Positions 34,646-37,888 of a stretch of DNA of 64,000 nucleotides are shown here, piece by piece. The notes under the pieces were generated by a model, which made no database searches, was not told where the DNA came from, and saw only the letters and a program-made list of their open reading frames with translations. This DNA is from an uncultured Desulfovibrionaceae bacterium. Lineage in GTDB: Bacteria; Desulfobacterota; Desulfovibrionia; Desulfovibrionales; Desulfovibrionaceae. The position numbers and the translations under genes were made by a program. Position 1 is the first letter of the stretch. Every line of letters begins with the position of its first letter. The DNA lies in NCBI GenBank assembly GCA_949741925.1, contig CATJOY010000054.1, forward strand, positions 1 to 64,000, read 5' to 3'.

Positions 34646-37600
34646 ATGGATACAGTTCCCTTTTGCCGGATGAAGGTGTATAGTACAGTTATGTCTCCGG
34701 TTTTCCCCCCCGATTCCGATCCGTTTTCACCTGTTGTTCCTCCGGACAAACGTGACGCGGCCATCGGCGGCGAGCCGCAATGTTTTGAGGGCGAATGCCC
34801 TTCGGCATATCCTGGGGAGCCTGTACAGGCCTCTTGCAAGAGCCTTCTTGGTTCCGGAATCTATTCCGCAACTACAGTTGCGGAATATGTTGAAGCGCTT
34901 CTGGCAACGCCGCGTTTTTGCAGGCAGGTTACGCACCATCGGGTTTTGGAGGCGGTCTCCCCTGAATACGGCGAGCCCGGGCGCCCCTGGAACGCTGCTA
35001 TGCGCACGGTGCTTGATGCCGCTTCCGTACGTTCTTTGTATGCGCATCAATCGCTTGCCGTTGATCTTGTACGGGCAGGCAAAGATATCGTCGTTGCTAC
35101 ACCTACGGCAAGCGGTAAATCTTTTACCTATAATTTACCGGTCATTGAACGATTTGTGGCAGATCCGGAGGCAACGGCTCTCTACATTTTCCCCTTAAAG
35201 GCCTTGGCCCAAGATCAGCTCAACGCCTTTCGTGCTCTCACGGCTCACTGGCCTCAGGATGCCCGCCCCAAAGCGGCAATTTATGATGGGGATACCACAG
35301 GCCATTTCCGGAAAAAGATCCGCAACGCGCCGCCCCAGGTGCTGATCACCAACCCCGAAATGCTGCATTTGGGCATTCTGCCGTTCCATGAAAAATGGGC
35401 TACTTTTTTGGCCTCGCTCAGCACGGTTGTTGTGGATGAGGTCCACACCTATAGAGGGATTCTTGGAGCCCATGTGGCCCAACTGTTCCGGCGTTTGGAA
35501 CGAATTGCGGCGCTCTATGGCGCGCGGCCCGGTTTTATTGCCTGTTCCGCCACCATCGGGAACCCGGCGGAGCTGGTAAACAACCTGACCGGCCGTAGAG
35601 CCGAACCCATTTTGCAAAGTGGTTCGCCTCAGGGCAGGCGGCATTTTGTTTTTATCAATCCCGAAGAGAGCCCGGCCACCACCGCCATTCATCTTTTGCG
35701 GGCCGCTTTGGCCAGAAATCTCCGAACCATCGTCTACGCCCAGTCACGGCGGATGACTGAACTAATCAGCATGTGGGCTGTTCAAAAGGCCGGGAAATAC
35801 GCTTCAAAAATCAGCGCCTACCGGGCCGGTTTTCTGCCTGAAGAACGGCGGGGCATCGAAGAGCGGATGGCTTCGGGAGATCTGCTGGCCGTCATCAGTA
35901 CCAGCGCCCTGGAACTCGGCATTGATATAGGCGGTCTGGATCTCTGCATTTTGGTGGGCTACCCCGGAACCATCATGTCTACCTTGCAGCGTGGCGGAAG
36001 AGTAGGCCGGTCGGGCAGGGAATCCGCCGTGCTTCTGATCGCCCAGGAGGATGCTCTGGATCAGTATATTGTCCGCCGACCGGAGGTTTTCTTTTCCAGC
36101 TCCGCGGAAAATGCCGTGCTTAATCCGGAAAATCCGGTCATCTTGGCCAGACATCTGGAGTGTGCCGCCGCTGAAATGCCCTTGCAGCCGGAGGGACGCG
36201 ATGCCTTCTGGTTACGCCCCGGCGGGGCCCGGAACGAGGCCGTGGCCGAAAGTATTGCCGCTTTGGAAGCAAAAGGGTTGTTGCTGCGCTCGGCTGAAGG
36301 AACAACCTGGCATGCTGCCCGGAAACGCCCTCAGCGTGATGTGGATCTGCGCGGTGCGGGCACAACGCTGCATATGGAGGATGACCAGGGCAATGCCATT
36401 GGTTCGGTGGATGGGCATCGGGCTCTGCACGAAGCCCATCCGGGCGCTGTCTATCTGCATCGGGGCAAAAGCTATATTGTTACAAACCTTGACCTGCCGG
36501 GCCGGACTGTTACCCTGACGCCGGGCAACCCGCCGTATTACACCCGCACACGGGGCCGTAAAACCACGGAAATTCTGGCGGAAGAAGCCCATTCCTTTGC
36601 CTGGGGCTGTCGGGTGGGTTTCGGCAGGCTCCGGGTCACCGAAGAGATCTCCGGCTATGAAAAGCGGGCTATCAAAGACGGTCGGCTCTTAGGCATCGTG
36701 CCCCTTGATCTGCCGCCGCTGGTTTTTGAAACCGAAGGCCTGTGGTTCGGTATTCCCGATGCTGCCCGCCTGGCAACGGAAGAAGCGTTGCTGCACTTCA
36801 TGGGGGCCATCCATGCCCTGGAACACGCCGCTATCGGTATTCTGCCGCTGTTGGTCATGGCTGATCGGAACGATTTGGGCGGCATCTCCACGCCCATGCA
36901 TGCCCAGTTGGGCGGCTCCGCGGTTTTTATTTATGATGGCCTCCCCGGCGGCGCGGGCTTGGCGCGCGAGGCCTTTAGCAAAGCAACGCTTCTTTTGGAA
37001 CGCACGGAAGAACTCATACGCCTCTGCCCCTGCGATACGGGCTGCCCCGCCTGCGTGCATTCGCCGAAATGTGGTTCAGGGAACAGGCCTATTGATAAGG
37101 CCGGCGCGCGTTTTCTGCTTGAGGCCATTCTCCGCCTGAAGCCTGATCCGGCAGCCTTTATTCCGCCCCGCCCGGCGGCGGAGGGAGAGGGGGGCAAGGA
37201 ATCGGCTTCTCGCCTGCGGAGCGAGGCCGAAGAATGCCCTCCGCCGCAGGCCTGCCCCAAAGCTGCCGCGGCTCCTGAGGAACGCCCCGGGCAGCTCCTG
37301 ACGGCAGGCGGCCCTTGGCCGGTCCTCCGGCCGGAGAGGGCTCCTTCCCCCTTGCCGCGATACGGCGTGCTGGATGTGGAAACCCGGTATTCGGCGGCTG
37401 AAGTCGGCGGCTGGCACAAAGCTTGGAAAATGGGCGTCAGTGTAGCGGTGCTTTATGATTCCAAAAGCGATGCCTTTACCTCGTTCAGTCAAGAGGAGAT
37501 TCCCGAACTGGCTCGGCGGCTGGCCGCCTTGGAGTTGGTGGTTGGCTTCAATATTCTTCGCTTTGATTACACGGTGCTCGGGCCGCACGCCGCGGGCGTG

Positions 37601-37888
37601 GATTTTCGCGCTTTTCCCACCCTGGATATGCTGGTTGCTATCCATGAGCGTCTTTCGTACCGACTTTCCTTGGATACCTTGGCCAAAGCCACCCTTGGCG
37701 TCCGAAAAAGCGCTGACGGCCTGGCCGCTTTGCGCTGGTGGAAGGAAGGGGCCGTGGATCGTATCGCCGCATACTGCCGCGACGATGTGGAACTGACCCG
37801 TGATTTATTTGTCTTCGGCCATGAAAACGGATATTTGCTGTTTCATAACAAAGCCGGCAGCGTTGTTCGTGTGCCGGTAAGCTGGTAA
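34646..37888 (+). CDS. MrfA-type SF2 helicase fused to an MrfB-type DEDD exonuclease
   Basis: Predicted DNA-repair helicase-nuclease. Helicase: ATPTASGKSF Walker A (about residue 150), DEVHTYRG (about 263), CSATIGNP, STSALELGIDIGGLD and QRGGRVGRSGR. Then a DUF1998-type domain ending in Cys4 CPCDTGCPACVHSPKCG (about 793-810), as in YprA/MrfA. A Pro/Ala-rich linker (about 830-900) leads to a RNase H-like domain: LDVET (about 908), VGFNILRFDY and YCRDDVELT (about 1043), giving the D, E, D, D and Tyr of a DEDDy exonuclease, as in YprB/MrfB. In Bacillus these are separate adjacent genes. ATG 34646 has GGAAG 6 bases upstream; ATG 34670 and 34691 are alternatives. Confidence 0.85.
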   Translation: MDTVPFCRMKVYSTVMSPVFPPDSDPFSPVVPPDKRDAAIGGEPQCFEGECPSAYPGEPVQASCKSLLGSGIYSATTVAEYVEALLATPRFCRQVTHHRVLEAVSPEYGEPGRPWNAAMRTVLDAASVRSLYAHQSLAVDLVRAGKDIVVATPTASGKSFTYNLPVIERFVADPEATALYIFPLKALAQDQLNAFRALTAHWPQDARPKAAIYDGDTTGHFRKKIRNAPPQVLITNPEMLHLGILPFHEKWATFLASLSTVVVDEVHTYRGILGAHVAQLFRRLERIAALYGARPGFIACSATIGNPAELVNNLTGRRAEPILQSGSPQGRRHFVFINPEESPATTAIHLLRAALARNLRTIVYAQSRRMTELISMWAVQKAGKYASKISAYRAGFLPEERRGIEERMASGDLLAVISTSALELGIDIGGLDLCILVGYPGTIMSTLQRGGRVGRSGRESAVLLIAQEDALDQYIVRRPEVFFSSSAENAVLNPENPVILARHLECAAAEMPLQPEGRDAFWLRPGGARNEAVAESIAALEAKGLLLRSAEGTTWHAARKRPQRDVDLRGAGTTLHMEDDQGNAIGSVDGHRALHEAHPGAVYLHRGKSYIVTNLDLPGRTVTLTPGNPPYYTRTRGRKTTEILAEEAHSFAWGCRVGFGRLRVTEEISGYEKRAIKDGRLLGIVPLDLPPLVFETEGLWFGIPDAARLATEEALLHFMGAIHALEHAAIGILPLLVMADRNDLGGISTPMHAQLGGSAVFIYDGLPGGAGLAREAFSKATLLLERTEELIRLCPCDTGCPACVHSPKCGSGNRPIDKAGARFLLEAILRLKPDPAAFIPPRPAAEGEGGKESASRLRSEAEECPPPQACPKAAAAPEERPGQLLTAGGPWPVLRPERAPSPLPRYGVLDVETRYSAAEVGGWHKAWKMGVSVAVLYDSKSDAFTSFSQEEIPELARRLAALELVVGFNILRFDYTVLGPHAAGVDFRAFPTLDMLVAIHERLSYRLSLDTLAKATLGVRKSADGLAALRWWKEGAVDRIAAYCRDDVELTRDLFVFGHENGYLLFHNKAGSVVRVPVSW

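Follow-up and report, generated by a model that had tools for sequence, protein, structure and literature searches.

The closest described system is the MrfA (YprA, 6ZNP) and MrfB (YprB, 8UN9) pair of Bacillus subtilis, two interacting proteins, epistatic to each other in mitomycin C repair, whose joint action is the authors' speculation from two-hybrid data and modelling (PMC11194089). That pair combines a YprA-family SF2 helicase carrying an MZB Cys4 domain with a PF13482-type DEDD exonuclease; the proteins are encoded by two genes, and the studied MrfB is a DEDDh enzyme (PMC11194089) with an N-terminal insertion and TPR. A 2025 survey mentions, in one phrase of its main text, DNA-repair YprA helicases that may be fused to MrfB/YprB homologues (PMC12458937), and YprA helicases joined to MrfB-like nucleases are in that respect already in print. 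RNase H-like cluster F.14 (PMC3985635, 2014) holds PF13482 members of DEAD/DEAH helicases together with T7 polymerase, apart from COG3359/YprB (F.10). Staphylococcus aureus DinG (PMC12345164) also carries an SF2 helicase and a DEDD exonuclease in one chain, but it is a 5'-3' helicase with an N-terminal DEDDh domain, built from different families; its resemblance to the gene described here is convergent architecture, and the link to mitomycin C resistance belongs to DinG.

The gene lies in a window of 64,000 nucleotides (positions 1 to 64,000 of contig CATJOY010000054.1, assembly GCA_949741925.1) from an uncultured Desulfovibrionaceae bacterium. No internal stop codons were seen in ORF 34646-37888, and its features were as follows:

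34646..37888, forward strand: complete fused gene, 1080 aa, a single ORF with an ATG start; homologous one-ORF fusions occur across the phylum
34646..34867, forward strand: N-terminal extension (residues 1-74), predicted disordered (pLDDT <50); few homologues align
35042..35566, forward strand: RecA1 (DEAD, residues 133-307), PF00270, 97 bits; Walker A lysine K158
35699..36016, forward strand: RecA2 (Helicase_C, residues 352-457), PF00271
36122..36358, forward strand: winged-helix domain (WHD_HRQ1, residues 493-571), PF22982
36818..37057, forward strand: MZB/DUF1998 zinc domain (residues 725-804) with C794, C796, C800 and C803, PF09369, 74 bits
37136..37354, forward strand: linker (about residues 831-903), unconserved, with 847-896 predicted disordered (AlphaFold2 and homologue alignment)
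37355..37885, forward strand: DEDDy exonuclease domain (residues 904-1080), from a PF13482 match, invariant residues and the AlphaFold2 fold
37373, 37379, 37565, 37772 and 37784, forward strand: catalytic codons of D910, E912, D974, Y1043 and D1047, respectively

These domain boundaries agree with those drawn in the first-pass annotation of the window. The start codon (M1, M9 or M16) is uncertain because residues 1-74 are unconserved and predicted to be disordered. The full-length AlphaFold2 model had a mean pLDDT of 84.4 and a pTM of 0.84, with residues 1-74 and 847-896 predicted to be disordered.

A search with the C-terminal domain found the fused-type nuclease domain in 127 of 150 genomes of the order and 86 of 297 of the phylum, and in both surveys its carriers were nearly always single ORFs of about 950 codons or more. 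The fusion is very common in sulfate-reducing bacteria. A scan of named genomes returned at least 547 matches; among the closest 80 of these, 70 loci held a complete one-ORF fusion, eight were truncated at contig ends, and two (L109 and L125), both in metagenome assemblies, were apparently broken. L109 contains a frameshift and L125 an internal deletion, and both resemble damaged forms of the fusion. A frameshift or assembly join in the window itself was ruled out by single-ORF homologues in many independent genomes. Homologues joined only by a frameshift, which the first-pass annotation had named as grounds for giving up its interpretation, were looked for, and with 70 of those closest 80 loci intact this explanation was rejected; the fusion is therefore real, a widely conserved natural union of a YprA-family helicase with a DEDDy exonuclease whose catalytic residues had been rightly named.

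Analysis of the nuclease domain revealed that D910, E912, D974, Y1043 and D1047 were invariant in 71/71 full-length homologues. The motifs singled out beforehand map onto these residues, with LDVET supplying D910 and E912, the central Asp being D974, and YCRDD supplying Y1043 and D1047. In Pfam, RNase_H_2 (PF13482) matched residues 954-1054, scoring 29.4 bits when the domain was scanned by itself (cut-off 22), and all 30 fused domains scanned matched the same family. AlphaFold2 modelling of the C-terminal domain alone gave a pLDDT of 96.2 and a pTM of 0.91, so that the nuclease fold on which the initial interpretation depended is present in the model. The best fold match was 5MDN, a family B polymerase from an archaeon (Z 15.2 over 162 residues, rmsd 3.6), and among solved structures the nearest folds were the proofreading exonucleases found in DNA polymerases of family B and of T7. 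The score above the Pfam cut-off, the fold match at Z 15.2 and the four invariant acidic residues place the domain among the PF13482/DnaQ-like DEDD exonucleases. The profile of fused domains had T7 polymerase as its best, weak match in the PDB (E=0.023), and PF01612 (the RNase D / PolA exonuclease family) was a weak second match in 29/30 fused domains. This last match would agree with a domain acting mainly on RNA or R-loops, like some DEDDy enzymes (RNase D, NrnC), but its nearest folds are those of DNA-polymerase proofreading domains, and the YprA-family helicases treated in the main text of PMC12458937 act on DNA; we regard such a role as extremely unlikely.

The description of this nuclease as MrfB-type was not borne out. 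The fourth position before the last Asp was occupied by Tyr, not His, in 71/71 fused homologues, which sets them outside the DEDDh group, and by His in 8/8 operonic MrfB proteins of the phylum. A C-terminal TPR is absent from the fusion, the chain ending with the exonuclease domain and a terminal beta hairpin. With a profile of 30 fused domains, MrfB 8UN9 was not listed in the PDB at E<=10; its absence among the 50 structure matches listed carries no weight, as polymerase entries filled that list. A profile of phylum MrfB (seven proteins encoded downstream of the helicase plus the upstream L200) found 8UN9 at 1e-56 and then TPR proteins, and a profile of the L004 family, a separate DEDDy protein, found MrfB first (4.6e-10). 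When profiles were compared with each other, stand-alone DEDDy and MrfB scored 98.8% (E=1e-16), the fused domain and MrfB 43% (E=2e-4), and the fused and stand-alone DEDDy domains 86% (89.6% with a smaller alignment).

L004 is the second PF13482 protein of the same genome, a COG3359-like stand-alone protein of 275 aa matching at 122.7 bits, versus 29.1 for the fused domain. It shares PF13482 and the DEDDy signature with the fused domain, but it is unfused and has an extra N-terminal region, and its family, compared with the fused domain, is the nearer to MrfB. By reading, its gene (L004:1246-2070, forward strand) lies directly downstream of a FliI/YscN-like ATPase gene.

By these profile comparisons, the fused nuclease is a remote DEDDy relative belonging to a different PF13482 subfamily from MrfB. 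Cluster F.14, as a helicase-linked PF13482 group near the T7 polymerase exonuclease, is likely the same family, and its separation from COG3359 agrees with the distance found here between the fused domain and MrfB; the account of F.14 in PMC3985635 gives no anatomy, distribution or function. The fused homologues mentioned in PMC12458937 probably include the present architecture (DNA-repair branch, fused nuclease), but the main-text phrase names the nuclease an MrfB/YprB homologue and sets apart no DEDDy subfamily. Such fused domains should not be annotated as MrfB.

The helicase portion showed the RecA1-RecA2 pair, winged helix and MZB Cys4 of the YprA/MrfA family. Residues 119-806 matched the solved B. 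subtilis YprA/MrfA structure 6ZNP at E=9e-138, with 37% identity between the two helicases, and the zinc-binding C794, C796, C800 and C803 were invariant in 71/71 full-length homologues. The earlier label of an MrfA-type helicase thus held for the YprA family and its DUF1998 Cys4, but not for MrfA itself: in a maximum-likelihood tree of 41 helicases, the fused group was split at 100/100 from the clade of B. subtilis MrfA and the mrfAB helicases. Identity to B. subtilis MrfA was 36-40% for the fused helicases in the set compared versus 46-53% for helicases of mrfAB operons. The fused helicases formed one group with moderate support (80/62), adjoined by unfused helicases of families f63, f48 and f91 (joint group 100/100). 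The next branch was the pair L200 and L201, in which a DEDDh gene lies upstream. On this phylogeny, MrfA and the fused helicase fall in sister clades.

True mrfAB operons were found in other Desulfobacterota, with a DEDDh nuclease carrying a TPR-like C-terminal region encoded directly downstream of a YprA helicase at seven loci. At L200:2528-3643 (reverse strand) and L201:2-397 (forward strand), an MrfB-like DEDDh gene adjoins the YprA helicase gene upstream, in the order reverse to mrfAB. The unfused close helicase L199:1747-4848 (forward strand, G383) has a 1034 aa frame with ~320 unmatched residues before the helicase, which may be a chance open frame.

An mrfA-mrfB operon fused in frame, with the C-terminal domain an MrfB orthologue, would likewise bring together a YprA-family helicase and a PF13482 DEDD exonuclease; it would also suit the PF13482 match in 30/30 fused domains scanned and the wording of the main-text phrase in PMC12458937, where helicases are described as 'fused to' homologues of MrfB/YprB. 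We consider this origin quite improbable, given the profile scores, which join the stand-alone DEDDy proteins rather than the fused domain to MrfB, the DEDDy rather than DEDDh active site, the missing TPR, the helicase clade apart from MrfA at 100/100, and the presence of true mrfAB elsewhere in the phylum.

No second MrfA was found in fused genomes (0/40), the MrfA query finding only the fused helicase, and no DEDDh MrfB either (0/40), the sole match of the true-MrfB profile being L004, the separate DEDDy protein from the window's genome. This 0/40 co-occurrence fits functional replacement, as a pattern that follows lineages, may partly reflect ancestry and is not statistical proof. Given this absence, the fusion probably arose independently as a counterpart of MrfAB. 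The analysis adds three points: MrfB is not the nuclease found in the fusion, MrfA and the fused helicase are sisters, and the fusion and mrfAB never occur together in the genomes tested. We give even chances to the broader proposition that YprA helicases have been coupled to DEDD exonucleases in at least three separate ways (the downstream DEDDh-TPR gene of mrfAB, the upstream DEDDh gene of L200/L201 and the C-terminal DEDDy fusion) and that the fusion is a one-chain, non-orthologous replacement of MrfAB, each genome with the one excluding the other.

The genes adjoining the fusion encode a lytic transglycosylase, an FAD oxidase and an rRNA methylase, all housekeeping functions. Only 4/80 loci (the closest 80 of at least 547 matches) had the FAD-oxidase gene, which here lies downstream, in the vicinity of the fusion, and no operon partner is therefore indicated. 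There was no match in annotated phage or plasmid records, and viral contigs gave matches at 24-40% only. Membership of the YprA defence branch (Druantia/ARMADA/DISARM-like), as an anti-phage helicase, would agree with the shared helicase superfamily, and the PADLOC models for BREX, Druantia and Dpd helicases do match the motor core. These matches fall mainly on the generic RecA core, however, and the match to MrfA (6ZNP) is much stronger; no defence genes were present among the adjacent genes checked, which thus lack the neighbourhood of YprA-based systems (Druantia, ARMADA, DISARM, Dpd). The order-wide spread is housekeeping-like, near-universal in the order, unlike defence islands, and a defence function appears very unlikely.

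The region from K818 to D910 was 46-163 aa long in homologues, without conserved sequence. Because the linker is predicted to be disordered and varies over this range, the nuclease is modelled as flexibly tethered, and the predicted linker offers no sign of a fixed interface. G103 (1.7 Mb; L174:4922-5521, reverse strand) and G370 (2.0 Mb; L171:5013-5669, reverse strand) encode a stand-alone DEDDy domain of 200-219 aa with all catalytic residues, and no YprA helicase was detected in either genome; the domain can therefore persist without the motor, and coupling is not obligatory. The first-pass annotation had taken the single chain as a strong sign that helicase and nuclease act as one complex, which the disordered 46-163 aa linker and the two genomes with the nuclease alone reduce to a weak implication.

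The gene in G370 comes after an HD-domain phosphohydrolase gene. In G249, which also has the fusion, a second, stand-alone DEDDy copy (L172:4867-5430, forward strand) lies beside a NERD-helicase gene.

The linker, the stand-alone nucleases of G103 and G370, the extra copy in G249 and the unfused close helicases of f63, f48 and f91 would all suit two domains that lie on one chain yet function mostly on their own, with the fusion mainly fixing co-expression or co-localisation. Against this stand the retention of the fusion in many families of the phylum and in the greater part of the order, and the finding that most checked genomes without the nuclease domain also lack the helicase, and we judge this arrangement rather unlikely.

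We consider it fairly probable that the gene encodes a chromosomal DNA-repair helicase-nuclease that is not a joined MrfAB pair and replaces mrfAB in its genomes. The analysis establishes its architecture, active-site conservation, predicted fold, phylogeny and the absence of mrfAB from the fused genomes tested; we infer its polarity, coupling and lesion. By homology, the YprA-family motor would translocate 3'-5' on single-stranded DNA and open the damaged duplex, the tethered DEDDy domain would use two-metal hydrolysis to cut back the exposed 3' end, and the gap would then be filled by polymerase and ligase; similar steps are what the authors of PMC11194089 suppose for the Bacillus proteins. 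Motor and nuclease would in this way clear DNA that is adducted or flapped, like the MrfA-MrfB pair of Bacillus, an action proposed because MrfA is a 3'-5' helicase and the nuclease a DEDD exonuclease; removal of DNA adducts by the fusion is thus suggested by analogy. No activity or phenotype of any fused member was found in the literature. As a naturally occurring single chain with another kind of nuclease, the fusion would be a ready system for studying helicase-nuclease coupling in UvrABC-independent adduct repair, and it would suggest that selection keeps the pairing itself rather than a particular nuclease.

ORFs of 970-1190 aa with strong RNase_H_2 matches (101-111 bits) were also observed at G017:C28, G050:C198, G025:C137 and G035:C44; these have another architecture and are perhaps COG2251/TM0106-like.
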